This document shows, one piece after another, positions 18,692-44,014 of a stretch of DNA of 56,429 nt (positions are counted from its first letter, which is position 1; each line of letters begins with the position of its first letter). The stretch is taken from the NCBI RefSeq assembly GCF_009939295.1, contig NZ_WVIC01000030.1:1-56429 (forward strand), read 5' to 3'. Made by a program: the position numbers and the translations under genes. The DNA is from Petrachloros mirabilis ULC683. GTDB taxonomy: Bacteria > Cyanobacteriota > Cyanobacteriia > Thermosynechococcales > Thermosynechococcaceae. Below the pieces are notes generated by a model. It made no database searches. It worked only from the letters and a program-made list of their open reading frames with translations, and was not told where the DNA came from.

Positions 18692-18896
18692 GGCTACCGT
18701 GTACACACAAATTTAAGAAGATGATTAAAAAGCCTCTAACATCCTTACACTCGCCCCCCTGCCCCCCCTCGCGAAGCGTGCCCGAAGAGCGTAATCTGGG
18801 GGGTTCTGAAGATCTCACAGTCCCCCAGAATGGGGGATGTAGGAGGCGAATGCAGGGTGAAATCATTTTTCTCAGACTTGTGTATACACAGTAGCC
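18692..18896 (+). repeat. Repeat D, copy 1 (205 bp MITE with 9-bp target duplication)
   Basis: Starts GGCTACCGTGTACACA and ends TGTATACACAGTAGCC (imperfect terminal inverted repeats). CCTAATCTG occurs immediately before (18683-18691) and immediately after (18897-18905): a 9-bp target-site duplication. The interior has CTCGCGAAGCGTGCCCGAAG and a CCCCCAGAATGGGGG palindrome. It shares its interior with D2 (41 kb) and D3 (43.8 kb). Confidence 0.8.
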
Positions 18897-39582: not shown

Positions 39583-40881
39583 TTAAACCAAAACGGGCTG
39601 CCAATCTAGGCGTTCCAGAGTGCGAGAGCGCTCTAGAGCCCGTTCAAAGCTGTCTAGCTTTGGTTCAATGGTGAGGGGTTCGCCCACATAGCCTTGGACG
39701 GCTTCCTGTGTTTTCAGGCCATTGCCGGTGATATAGACGACGGTTTTCTCGTCGGGGTCAATTTTACCGGCTGCGACTAGCTTTTGGAGGACGGCAATGG
39801 TGGTGCCCCCAGCAGTCTCGGTGAAGATGCCTTCTGTTTCGGCTAGCAGCTTGATGCCAGCTACGATTTCAGCATCATTGACCGACTCAATTTGGCCATT
39901 GGTCTTGCGAGCGATGTCGAGGGCATAAACGCCATCGGCGGGATTGCCAATGGCAATGGACTTGGCAATGGTGCTGGGTTTCACCGGGGAAATAAAGTCG
40001 CGCCCTTCTTGATAGGCTTGGGCGATAGGAGAGCAGCCTTCGGCTTGGGCACCACTGAAACGAACGGCTTTGTCAGCGACTAGTCCCACGTCTACAAACT
40101 CGCGGAAGCCTTTGTATATTTTTGTGAACAAAGAGCCGGAGGCCAGAGGTGCCACAATGTGATCAGGGAGTTCCCACCCGAGTTGCTCGGCCACTTCGTA
40201 GCCCAGGGTTTTGGAACCTTCCGAGTAGTAGGGTCGCAGGTTGATATTCACAAACCCCCAGCCATGGGTGTTGGCGACTTCGGAACACAGACGGTTGACT
40301 TGGTCGTAGTTGCCTTCAACGGCCATTACCGTTGGTGCATAGATGAGCGTGCCCATGACCTTGCCCGCTTCTAAGTCCGAGGGAATGAAGACGCAGCAGT
40401 CTAACCCAGCTCGGGCTGCGATCGCAGCCGTTGAGTTGGCCAGATTTCCGGTGCTAGCACAAGACACTGTGGTAAAGCCCAATTCTTGAGCGCGGGTAAG
40501 CGCCACCGACACCACCCGATCCTTGAAGCTGAGGGTGGGCATGTTGACCGCATCGTTCTTGATGTAGAGGTGCTTCAGACCTAAGCGTCGCGCCAAACGC
40601 TTGGCTTGCAATAGGGGCGTCATCCCGGTGCCCATGTCAATGGGGTTATCCGTTGCCACTGGCAGAAAGTCTCGATACCGCCAGATAGAATTGGGGCCAG
40701 CTTGAATCTGCTCCCGAGTCATGCGACCTCGCAGCTTGCTGAAGTCGTAGGCCACTTCTAAGGGGCCAAAGCAATATTCACAGACATGCTGGGCTTTAAG
40801 CTCATACTCAGCGCCACACTCTTTACACTTGAGAGCCTGAAAGGTGGCAGTGGGCGTCGCGGCAACGGAGGCTAGGGTCAT
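39583..40881 (-). CDS. thrC: Threonine synthase
   Basis: PLP-dependent lyase that converts O-phosphohomoserine to threonine. 432 residues; an N-terminal zinc-ribbon-like part has CKEC (19-22) and CEYC (34-37), found in many ThrC proteins. Lys120 in TLSFKDR is the PLP Lys; SCASTGNLANSTAAIAARAG and ETAGGTTIAVLQ are conserved PLP-site segments. It is headed by a leader with three hairpins (40911-40991). MoaD-like and DUF2996 genes follow on the same strand. Confidence 0.96.
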   Translation of the reverse strand: MTLASVAATPTATFQALKCKECGAEYELKAQHVCEYCFGPLEVAYDFSKLRGRMTREQIQAGPNSIWRYRDFLPVATDNPIDMGTGMTPLLQAKRLARRLGLKHLYIKNDAVNMPTLSFKDRVVSVALTRAQELGFTTVSCASTGNLANSTAAIAARAGLDCCVFIPSDLEAGKVMGTLIYAPTVMAVEGNYDQVNRLCSEVANTHGWGFVNINLRPYYSEGSKTLGYEVAEQLGWELPDHIVAPLASGSLFTKIYKGFREFVDVGLVADKAVRFSGAQAEGCSPIAQAYQEGRDFISPVKPSTIAKSIAIGNPADGVYALDIARKTNGQIESVNDAEIVAGIKLLAETEGIFTETAGGTTIAVLQKLVAAGKIDPDEKTVVYITGNGLKTQEAVQGYVGEPLTIEPKLDSFERALERSRTLERLDWQPVLV

Positions 40882-40910: not shown

Positions 40911-40991
40911 AGTCATGGGCATCCATGACTCGCTTGATAGTAACACGAGTTATAAAGCTCGTCAAACATACCCGACTCTTTTAGTCGGGTA
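40911..40991 (-). promoter_or_regulatory. Structured leader upstream of thrC (three hairpins)
   Basis: Three inverted repeats in 81 bases: AGTCATGG/CCATGACT with a four-base loop (40911-40930), ACGAG/CTCGT (40945-40962) and TACCCGACT/AGTCGGGTA with a five-base loop (40969-40991). All would be in the thrC 5' leader if transcription starts beyond 40991. No T-run follows any of them, so a simple terminator is unlikely. Riboswitch, operator or repeat remains are all possible. Confidence 0.4.
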
Positions 40992-41026
40992 TAAGATTTA
41001 AGGTTCTAGCCCCTCTCCCAGCATTG

Positions 41027-41388
41027 CTACGGTGCACACACAAATTTAATGAACGTGAGTTCGACAGCTCTCGTCTGCCCTCACCCCCTAGCCCCCTCTC
41101 CCAACATTGGGAGAGGGGGAACAGAGCACAAATTCAAGGTTTTAGCCCCTCTCCCAGGATTGGGAGAGGGGTTGGGGTGAGGGCGGATAAGTCGTCGAAC
41201 TCACGTATAATGAAGAGGCTTAAAAAGCCTCTAAAATCCTTGCACTCGCCCCCCTGCCCCCCTCGCGAAGCGTGCCCGAAGGGCGTAATTTGGGGGGTTC
41301 TGAATATTTCACAGTCCCCCAGCATGGGGGATGTAGGGGGCGAATGCAGGGTGGAATCGTTTTTCCCAGACTTGTGTGTACACCGAAG
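41027..41388 (+). repeat. Repeat D, copy 2 (interrupted by repeat E)
   Basis: Ends CTACGGTGCACACACAA and TTGTGTGTACACCGAAG are imperfect terminal inverted repeats, like D1. CAGCATTG stands on both sides (41019-41026 and 41389-41396): an 8-bp target-site duplication. Without the inserted E element it is about 205 bases and aligns with D1 throughout. Confidence 0.75.
41053..41207. repeat. Repeat E (155 bp, perfect 13-bp TIRs, inserted in D2)
   Basis: ACGTGAGTTCGAC at 41053-41065 and GTCGAACTCACGT at 41194-41206 are perfect 13-base inverted repeats. TAATGA lies on both sides, a probable 6-bp target duplication. The interior has two CCCCTCTCCCA...TGGGAGAGGGG palindromes. The insertion point is clear by comparison with D1, which lacks E at this place. 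Confidence 0.75.
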
Positions 41389-41445
41389 CAGCATTGGGAG
41401 AGGGGTTGGGGTGAGGGCAGGCAAGAGCTATCGAACTTACGTTCA

Positions 41446-42015
41446 TCAACGCTTATCACCGACAAAGGGCGTGCCCCAGTGCTGCCAGTTTTCTTTGTTG
41501 AATGGGGAGCGCCATGTATGGATGAACTGCCGCTCTAGTTGCTGGCGATCGCGGGTCAGTTGAGGAGCGCAGGGCCAAAACCCAATTTGCAACTGGGTGG
41601 GAATCTGAAGCTGATAGTGAAGCTCACGATAGTTGGCCAGATAGCGCTTGCAGTCGTGTACCCCTTTCCAGCGCTGGTGAGCCTTTCCCGTTTCGCCCAC
41701 GTACAGCAGAATCGGCACTTCAGCATCAATGACAAAGTAAAGGGAAGGCTCCCCAGCATCGCTGACCCGCCAGCGCCAAAACTCAGTATTTTGCTGACGC
41801 AGCTCAAAGGGGTTCAGCTCTAGAGCTGGGTTGGGTTCCCTTGAAAAAAGACTGCCCTGGGCTATGGGCTGACTTTGTACCTGCTGCTGAAACCGAAAAA
41901 CTCGCTGTTTCCATTCCTGTAAGGCAGCGGCACTCATTTGGAGCCGAGGTTGATGACTACGGCGGGGCTGGCGATAGCGAATGGGCTCAGGGAAGAGGGA
42001 TTGTTGTTCATCCAT
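41446..42015 (-). CDS. GIY-YIG nuclease-family protein
   Basis: 189 residues from the ATG at 42015 (MDEQQSLFPEP). The longer open frame to 42258 covers antisense of the antiporter start and is not native; an ATG at 42081 is another option. VPILLYVGETGKAHQRWKG is the GIY-YIG core: Tyr, Gly and the catalytic-side Arg are visible, and QQLERQFIHTWRSPFNKENW holds the Glu-containing and Asn-containing segments. N-terminal part is Gln/Arg-rich. Single-domain GIY-YIG proteins act on DNA in known cases; role here unknown. TGATGA stops abut a repeat end. Confidence 0.78.
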   Translation of the reverse strand: MDEQQSLFPEPIRYRQPRRSHQPRLQMSAAALQEWKQRVFRFQQQVQSQPIAQGSLFSREPNPALELNPFELRQQNTEFWRWRVSDAGEPSLYFVIDAEVPILLYVGETGKAHQRWKGVHDCKRYLANYRELHYQLQIPTQLQIGFWPCAPQLTRDRQQLERQFIHTWRSPFNKENWQHWGTPFVGDKR

Positions 42016-42181
42016 GGGGATTGGGTCTATCTGTGCCGAGCTGTCTGTGCCAAGCTGTCTGTACCATTGAGCCTTCATCATATCGGCATTGATTCTGCGC
42101 TGCGCAAGCCTGTCCGATACACTTGTGAATGGTGTTTTGGCCGGTGTGCGGATGGACTTTTTTTTGGCGGCAGAAGGGGTG

Positions 42182-43720
42182 ATGGAGCATGATACTGCGA
42201 TCGCAACCAATCTGAAGCAGTTCTTGCTGGTGTTATCGGTCTCTTTGAGCGTTGCCACCCTGCCTCAGGTGGTGAGCTGGTTTCGGCAAATTCCCTATAC
42301 CTTGCTACTGGTGATTGTGGGTGCTTGCCTCGCCTTTGTGGATGTACGACTGGTGAACCTGTCACCGGAACTGATTTTGACCATCTTCTTGCCCCCACTC
42401 CTTTTTGAGGCCGCCTGGAACCTGAAGTGGGAAAACCTCAAGCGAGATTTTATCCCCATCAGCCTCTATGCCGTATTTGGCGTGGTCATTACCATTGCCG
42501 GTATCGCCTTCGGTCTCAATCAATGGGTGGGACTGCCCCTGAGTACGGCCTTGTTAATTGGAGCCAGCCTATCTGCCACCGATCCAGTTTCCGTGGTGGC
42601 TCTGTTTCGAGAATTAGGAGCCAGTAAGCGCCTGACTACGCTGATGGAAGGCGAAAGCTTGTTCAATGACGGTATGGCAGTGGTAGCCTTTGGATTTCTG
42701 GTCGCCTTGTCCCTGGGGTTAGCCGAACCCGATCCACCTACGCTGGTGGCCAAACTAATCACAGTCGTTGGCATTGGGGTTGGGGTTGGCGGCCTGATTG
42801 GCTTCGGTATTTCCTACCTCACCCAGCGATTTGATCTTCCCCTTGTTGAGCAATCTCTGACCCTTGTCTCCGCCTATGGCACCTATTTAATTACCGAAGA
42901 CTTGGGCGGCTCTGGGGTGATTGGAGTGGTCACCACCGGGTTGATTTTGGGGAACTTTGGCTCTCGAATTGGCATGAATCCCCGCACCCGCCTGATTGTC
43001 ACCGAGTTTTGGGACTTTCTCGCCTTTTTTGTCAACTCCATTGTCTTTTTGTTAATTGGCGACCAAATTCAATATGCTGTCTTAGGAGAAAATCTACCGA
43101 TCATTGGGGTCACCATTGTGGCGATGCTGGCGACTCGGGCTCTGTCGATGTATGGCTTGAGTGCCCTCAGCAATGTGTTCACCCAGTCTGACATCAACCT
43201 GCGACAGCAAACCGTGCTGTGGTGGGGCGGTCTACGGGGGTCGGTCTCTATTGCCCTGGCCTTAAGCGTTCCCACTATTTTGGGAGAGCGGCAAGAGGTG
43301 ATTGCCACGGTGTTCGGCGTAGTCCTATTCACACTGTTGTTCCAGGGGCTAACCACCAAGCCCTTATTAGAAACACTGGACTTGCTCGAAGATCAACCTC
43401 AGCAGCAAGAATACCTGACCCTGATGGCGCGTCGGGCTGCTCTCAAGCGCGTCCTAGACTTTCTTCAAACTGCTGAGCGACCTGGCTTGGATCCTGAATA
43501 TAGTCGCTACCAAGTGGCGTTGCTGGAAGGTCAACTCAGTAAGCTGGCGTCGGAAGTGGAGACTTTGCAACGCCAGCATCCTTCCTTGAAGGAGTTTTCT
43601 CAAGAGCAATTGCGCGAGGAGCTGATGGCCATAGAGGCAGACACCTATGCTGAGCTCACCAAGACCGGTCGTTTGAAGCAAGAATTGGCTCCTTTTTTAC
43701 CAGAGATTCTTGCGGAGTGA
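42182..43720 (+). CDS. CPA1-type sodium/proton antiporter
   Basis: About 512 residues with twelve or so membrane helices. Ion-binding signature: SATDPVSVVALF (with the key Asp) and MEGESLFNDGMAVVAFG. A helix with GGSGVIGVVTTGLILGNFG and the conserved Arg segment WGGLRGSVSIALAL follow. The last 85 residues are a cytosolic helical tail (YQVALLEGQLSKLASEVETL). It exports sodium in exchange for protons. Three starts are possible in frame: TTG 42089, ATG 42152 and ATG 42182; the last is chosen because the helices start right after it. Confidence 0.93.
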   Translation: MEHDTAIATNLKQFLLVLSVSLSVATLPQVVSWFRQIPYTLLLVIVGACLAFVDVRLVNLSPELILTIFLPPLLFEAAWNLKWENLKRDFIPISLYAVFGVVITIAGIAFGLNQWVGLPLSTALLIGASLSATDPVSVVALFRELGASKRLTTLMEGESLFNDGMAVVAFGFLVALSLGLAEPDPPTLVAKLITVVGIGVGVGGLIGFGISYLTQRFDLPLVEQSLTLVSAYGTYLITEDLGGSGVIGVVTTGLILGNFGSRIGMNPRTRLIVTEFWDFLAFFVNSIVFLLIGDQIQYAVLGENLPIIGVTIVAMLATRALSMYGLSALSNVFTQSDINLRQQTVLWWGGLRGSVSIALALSVPTILGERQEVIATVFGVVLFTLLFQGLTTKPLLETLDLLEDQPQQQEYLTLMARRAALKRVLDFLQTAERPGLDPEYSRYQVALLEGQLSKLASEVETLQRQHPSLKEFSQEQLREELMAIEADTYAELTKTGRLKQELAPFLPEILAE

Positions 43721-43797: not shown

Positions 43798-43917
43798 CTC
43801 GGAATGTCCCCCAATTTGGGGGGTTCTGAATATCTCACAGTCCCCCAGAATGGGGGATGTAGGGGGCAAATGCAGGGTGAAATCGTTTTTCTCAGACTTA
43901 CTGTATACACCGTAGCC
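43798..43917 (+). repeat. Repeat D, copy 3 (right part)
   Basis: Matches the right 60% of D1/D2, from GGGGGGTTCTGAATATCTCA and the CCCCCAGAATGGGGG palindrome to the end CTGTATACACCGTAGCC. The left end with its terminal repeat is missing. It lies between the antiporter and gloA stops. Confidence 0.7.
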
Positions 43918-44014
43918 CTTTTGGGGAGAAGGGGCTAGGGGATGAGGGCAAGTCTTCTCAGGGATATTTAGGTTGAAGTCGCACCCAAAATGACAAGACT
44001 TCTGGAAAGCGTGA

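Follow-up and report, generated by a model that had tools for sequence, protein, structure and literature searches.

Between two minus-strand open reading frames (41446-42258 and 39583-40881), the window, i.e., the whole 56,429-bp stretch of Petrachloros mirabilis DNA analyzed here, contains what is very probably a stack of three insertions. They belong to two families of miniature inverted-repeat transposable elements (MITEs), which we call E and D, presumably moved in trans by transposases that are absent from the draft. The window corresponds to one contig (C47) of a draft genome (G000) of 4.12 Mb in 79 contigs, and the frame downstream of the composite site (39583-40881, minus strand) codes for a PALP-family enzyme. 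The nest requires the successive action of two transposase families. It records in which order two transposition systems were active; the transposase of neither was found in the genome. The components of the site, together with two other loci of the window that bear on it, are the following.

40996-41026 (+), left remnant of E', an old truncated E copy, ending with a copy of the D target duplication, CAGCATTG, at 41019-41026
41027-41052 (+), left end of the MITE D2, end CTACGGTGCACACACAA; the last seven bases, TTAATGA (41046-41052), are the left target copy of E
41053-41206 (+), 154-bp MITE E of the flipped-core sub-type, with IS982-type ends ACGTGAGTTCGAC around two GC-rich triplex-type hairpins in inverted orientation
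41207-41213 (+), right target copy of E, ATAATGA, one mismatch against the left copy
41214-41388 (+), remainder of D2; its right end, read on the minus strand, is CTTCGGTGTACACACAAG, an IS50-type end
41389-41396 (+), right copy of the D2 target duplication, CAGCATTG
41397-41442 (+), right remnant of E', including its right end TCGAACTTACGT
18694-18894 (+), MITE D1, free of E (empty-site comparison), 11-bp duplication CCTAATCTGGG within a palindrome
43813-43949 (+), old half-D beside a triplex-type hairpin remnant, a diverged trace of nesting of this kind

A perfect short hairpin (CCCGACT/AGTCGGG, 40971-40989) lies immediately to the left of E' and is a possible terminator.

Anatomy and order of the insertions

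A preliminary description of this stretch had already recognized three short elements nested inside one another, and most of its anatomy can be read directly from the site. E was correctly delimited as an element with perfect 13-bp inverted ends. The duplication assigned to it, TAATGA, matches exactly but is one base off the right end; the better reading is a 7-bp duplication with a single mismatch, because 7 bp is the norm of the E family. E sits inside D2, which spans 41027-41388 with E included and is flanked by the 8-bp duplication described before. D1 does provide the empty site: D2 without E and without one 7-bp copy measures 201 bp, the same as D1, with 182 identities over 200 aligned positions and one gap on each side in an end-to-end alignment. 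The D copies aligned from other contigs also run uninterrupted through the point at which E is inserted.

The proposal that D2 had itself entered the palindrome of an older E-like element was borne out as well, although that older copy is only a truncated half. Rejoined across D2, E' is 77 bp long. Compared with the right half of E, it shares 69 and 70 of the 77 positions with the two main E types, against 39 in the opposite sense. Its right end is degenerate, and its left half and left end are missing; with them gone, there is no left target duplication, and the insertion of E' is therefore not directly demonstrable. The order E-like, then D, then E holds, with support for all of its steps. 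That E was mobile both before and after D is true at the level of the family, but not of one and the same element: E' is of the main type and the E of the window is of the later, flipped-core type, so that the old type accounts for the earlier insertion and a derived type for the later.

In the sequence of events that we favor, a main-type E with ends ACGTGAGTTCGA, moved by an IS982-family transposase, would have entered upstream of the PALP-family gene and would later have lost its left half. Next, an IS4-family (IS50/Tn5-like) transposase would have brought a D element into the loop of what was left of the E hairpin, since the D system favors CCC-N5-GGG palindromes, and finally a young flipped-core E would have inserted near the left end of D2. 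Both the supply of the transposases in trans and the cut-and-paste mode of these movements are inferred, as is the truncation of the first E after, and not before, its insertion.

The E family and its link to IS982

Searches of the window's own genome for E gave 158 first-look candidates, of which 40 were scored, and near-exact E ends were counted 63 times in forward and 57 times in reverse orientation. Among the loci fetched from this genome, there were 47 distinct copies with both ends, 43 of them exactly 154 bp long. Exact target duplications of 5 to 9 bp flank 40 of the 47 (27 of 7 bp, eight of 8, three of 6, and one each of 5 and 9); of the seven copies lacking an exact one, three, including that of the window, show 7 bp that differ at one base. 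One group of 17 copies is identical to the letter, and a second such group comprises 11. E is therefore built like a MITE: short, with no transposase gene, with inverted ends and target duplications, and in many copies. The flipped-core sub-type consists of the window copy and three others (L002, L003, and L004), i.e., four of the 43 full-length elements, with zero to one differences. When the core was allowed to be inverted between the two arms, in a test that also allowed length shifts, the sub-type agreed with the main E at 152 of 154 positions; without the flip there were 142 identities with four gaps. Six contigs (L093 to L098) carry unpaired E ends, with no partner 154 bp away; they were considered as transposase-bearing elements and rejected, since no recognizable transposase frame was seen by eye, and were put down to chance or decay.

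The preliminary description had suggested looking for a transposase with the same terminal repeats, and this was found in elements of other genomes, but not in the window's own, where the IS982 transposase domain (PF13612) had no match in the 79 contigs. The exact 32-base E end had no match in the genome-contig collection; a degenerate pattern of the end, ACGTGAGTTCGAYGNNARAARA, occurred in at least 114 stretches, mostly of Bacteroidales and also of cyanobacteria. Nine of the 24 listed pairs of facing ACGTGAGTTCGA ends were 994 to 1,041 bp long, and six of these nine pairs, of ca. 1.0 kb, had exact duplications of 6 to 8 bp. The frames at two such loci, one in a Prevotellaceae (L193) and the other in the same family as the window's genome (L285), are IS982-family transposases that also match PF13612; the two reached 264.7 and 280.8 bits with NF033520 (cut-off, 130). 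Among 30 IS982-domain loci of cyanobacterial relatives, nine had facing ends of this type 963 to 1,021 bp apart, three of them with exact duplications of 6 to 7 bp. In one relative (G010), a shared 14-base end is followed by two different inner ends; one of them has a start codon ca. 80 bp inside, and the stretches run off their contigs, as expected of a collapsed repeat.

According to the available part of the IS982 review (PMC7335449), the ends of this family begin with 5'-AC and the duplication is of variable length. E fits the end consensus given there, AC(N)6T(N)5TT, at the AC and at the T in position 9, and lacks the TT at positions 15 and 16. It thus resembles the family, as described in that part of the review, in its 5'-AC end, its variable duplications, and a 12-bp end common to transposase-bearing IS982 elements of cyanobacteria and Bacteroidales, and it differs from IS982 elements in having no transposase gene and an interior made of a double triplex-type hairpin. 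The match of its ends to those of transposase-bearing IS982 elements suggests that E is an IS982-derived MITE. Such MITEs are so far little described; the terms MITE, MITEs, non-autonomous, and nonautonomous are absent from the same part of the review (PMC7335449). An IS256-type gene on contig C1 was discarded as a partner of either E or D, its own ends being different.

The D family and its link to IS4

The D end pattern CTACNGTGTACACACANNTCT occurs 224 times in the window's own genome and is present in 111 of 388 cyanobacterial genomes, in which the reversed pattern, used as a control, gave no match. Target duplications were scored in 41 copies (one mismatch allowed from 9 bp up), a selected set because a duplication was required: 11 bp in 15 copies, 10 in 16, 9 in five, 8 in four, including D2, and 12 in one. 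Thirty-eight of the 41 are 133 to 201 bp long and the remaining three 316 to 362 bp. D too has the make-up of a MITE, being short and gene-less, with inverted ends and duplications and in many copies.

Transposase-bearing elements with the ends of D were found at two loci (L325 and L321). One element with D ends is found on the Acaryochloris sp. 'Moss Beach' plasmid pMB02. It is flanked by an 11-bp duplication, GTTGTTGAAGG, and its transposase gene, of IS4 type, is interrupted by an IS630-type insertion. The larger piece of this transposase scored 307.7 bits with the IS4 model (cut-off, 160) and matched chains of the Tn5 transposase structure (ca. 2e-28). The IS630-type transposase gene inside the IS4-type element lies at 2833-3787 of L325. 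In a comparison made here, the D end fits the IS50-subgroup consensus CW------Y---CA-A--W-, as found in the available portion of "IS4 family goes genomic" (PMC2266710), at all fixed positions. The same portion gives a duplication of 8 to 9 bp for the IS50 subgroup; in the IS4 family it is about 10 bp. With 10 or 11 bp in 31 of 41 copies, the usual duplications of D are within the IS4-family range and longer than those of the subgroup; that of D2 is 8 bp. The end consensus and a related transposase with Tn5 structural matches liken D to the IS50 subgroup, as outlined in that source, from which it departs by its mostly 10- to 11-bp duplications and its preference for CCC-N5-GGG palindromes.

The IS256- and IS4-type transposases present in the window's own genome all have ends other than those of E or D; among them, an IS4-type gene on contig C7 was rejected as the partner of D because its ends, CTTAGTGGTGCAGAAAA, differ. 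Six contigs of this genome (C7, C16, C17, C43, C44, and C70) break ca. 30 to 40 bp inside D-type ends, which suggests that longer collapsed copies, possibly transposase bearing, are missing from the assembly. The D end also appeared once, unpaired, in each of five near-identical virus contigs, which we judged unrelated. Among the papers listed by a literature search with end sequences, the matches were unrelated.

Target choice and nesting elsewhere

D prefers palindromes. By a criterion of at least nine of 14 pairs, 19 of the 41 D sites lie in dyads, compared with 2.4% of 5,000 random window positions, and 22 have no clear dyad by this measure; the 15 duplications of 11 bp share the consensus CC(C/T)-N5-(G/A)GG. 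IS231, also of the IS4 family, has the target GGG-N5-CCC. Once rejoined, 12 of the 41 D sites resemble the E core, and only that of the window is an E copy that extends to the element's end. The entry of D into the E palindrome follows from this preference and is not an independent coincidence, so nesting of D in E is to be expected of a palindrome-seeking system and is hardly freakish. In the other direction, D elements house four of the 47 E copies (the window, L020, L028, and L103), against 0.2 expected if insertion were uniform and 1.5 if it were confined to an assumed 15% of noncoding space (P = 0.06); as the number is compatible with chance, we make no claim of targeting by E. At another locus (L099, contig C17), a D end starts within the left half of E, and then the contig ends.

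A third MITE, F, with ends CTGRTTGACTGACAAA, carries the hairpin core, often with D in the loop. It was seen solely in loci fetched for other reasons, where 16 pairs of its ends were present; the duplication is an exact 9 bp in six of them and 11 bp in another. A 177-bp chimera that joins F to half a D accounts for six of the pairs (L052, L054, L055, L056, L057, and L059), three of which have exact 9-bp duplications; a nested pair, after a deletion, has thus spread as a new mobile unit. Locus L046 (contig C22, 1-480) combines a D end in an E-like remnant with an adjoining F (9-bp duplication GTACGCTAA) that holds a D.

The chimera shows that a composite can become mobile, which would also allow the whole site of the window to be one conserved repeat unit, either a larger element or a structured regulator, in which the nesting is merely apparent. 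We consider this extremely unlikely. The 47 E copies have 47 different flanks, the 41 D copies have different targets, and neither D1 nor other aligned D copies contain E at the insertion point. A second copy of the arrangement of E in D in E' was not seen among the E and D copies of this genome, over which the ends of the two families are scattered apart, as separate families.

As for known systems, IS1111 targets a palindrome inside QMITE2 of Coxiella, according to the available part of a review (PMC10969869). The parallel with the case presented there is that of a transposon entering the palindrome of a MITE; the difference is that the element coming in at the present site is a MITE too, belonging to a DDE-type, duplication-making system, and nesting goes in both directions (E in D and D in E). 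Nezha and other MITEs of cyanobacteria share with E and D that they are short, gene-less, and repeated, as do the small dispersed repeats known from these bacteria. Very small mobile repeats in cyanobacteria were reportedly the subject of a 2008 study.

The hairpin core as shared cargo

The interior of E is made of two head-to-head GC-rich hairpins, its halves being in opposite sense. Folding predicts a stem closed by the E ends with the two hairpins inside (-109.9 kcal/mol, z = -12.7). Such a very stable fold, at a site between the two minus-strand genes, the PALP-family one being downstream, might indicate a leader or attenuator of that gene, with hairpins kept for this role. This seems highly unlikely to us, as the same sequence is found at 47 unrelated places and an Rfam search of the composite site gave no family above the gathering score; the low-score matches to microRNA families were dismissed as composition artifacts. 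Insertion of mobile elements remains our explanation for the hairpins at this site.

Each E hairpin has the arrangement CCCTCTCCC-loop-GGGAGAGGGG-TT-GGGGTGAGGG, near-identical to Escherichia coli motifs such as CCCTCTCCCTGTGGGAGAGGGTCGGGGTGAGGGC in the available part of Holder et al. 2015 (PMC4666352). By its sequence pattern, the core matches the G/C-rich intrastrand triplex motif (TM or TMECO); the triplex-type pattern, with its third purine-rich strand, was found once in the window and in none of 100 shuffles. In the sections of Holder et al. 2015 available (PMC4666352), TM numbers are given as very high in cyanobacteria, no mobility features are reported around TMECO, and the origin is called unclear. 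Here, in contrast with those sections (PMC4666352), which make no link to mobility, the motif is inside MITEs with target duplications.

The E query matched 36 of the 58 genomes searched (its own included), mostly with the core alone. We examined 64 core loci of relatives (the 24 best per genome and 40 further ones) and then five more, and the core arms were found in 46 of the 64 and three of the five. Since these loci were found by their likeness to the E core, the shares that follow are not genome-wide rates. Significant terminal repeats outside the core were detected in 17 of the 49 loci with arms, the other 32 having no detectable ends, and nine of the 17 had an exact duplication of at least 7 bp (offsets of up to three bases allowed). 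Six types of ends surround the core: ACGTGAGTTCGA (two loci), GTAACTACTCAG (four), CTGGTTGACTGACA (three), GGCGATGTGCAACTT (four), AGGAACGAGAATTAAATAA (three), and GCTTCAACTTAA (one), with duplications found for ACGTGAGTTCGA, GTAACTACTCAG, CTGGTTGACTGACA, and GGCGATGTGCAACTT. In one relative (G045), the core is inside two unrelated end types in a single genome (L386 and L388; L387, L389, and L392).

That cores are so widespread without terminal repeats, and that the E core was flipped between its arms in a recombination-like event, would fit movement between hairpins through template switching, through recombination, or with the help of a REP/RAYT-type system, instead of DDE transposases. For the site of the window this appears very improbable: the elements have exact ends and family-specific duplication lengths (7 bp for E, 9 for F, and 10 to 11 for D), and transposase-bearing elements share the ends of both E and D. 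The duplications refute it for E and D; the bare cores still fit it. For E and D, transposition is the reading that we retain.

Because the core is found within at least six sets of terminal repeats and D prefers palindromes, the triplex-type hairpin serves several unrelated MITE families as common cargo and another family as a landing pad. Nested MITEs are of an already known kind; the TM as a shared MITE cargo looks new. In a literature search, no paper listed connected the triplex motif with MITEs in its title or the opening of its abstract, and an earlier description in subscription journals is possible. We propose, tentatively, that the bacterial GC-rich triplex or hairpin motif may be a hitchhiker of unrelated transposases (IS982, IS4/IS50-like, and at least two more, unassigned ones), carried as MITE cargo, on which a palindrome-seeking IS50-like system lands, and that nesting, deletion, and remobilization may swap ends between families. 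If true, this would account for the spread of triplex motifs and the instability of their loci, and how they spread would become testable by ordinary transposition assays.

In a covariation check of the core hairpins, two-sided changes were found in three of 25 predicted pairs, within one predicted fold that joins both hairpins, and were given no weight. In another genome (G031:C652:3989-4338, search coordinates), two E-like right halves and one nearly full copy follow one another, an arrangement resembling a tandem amplification of half-units.
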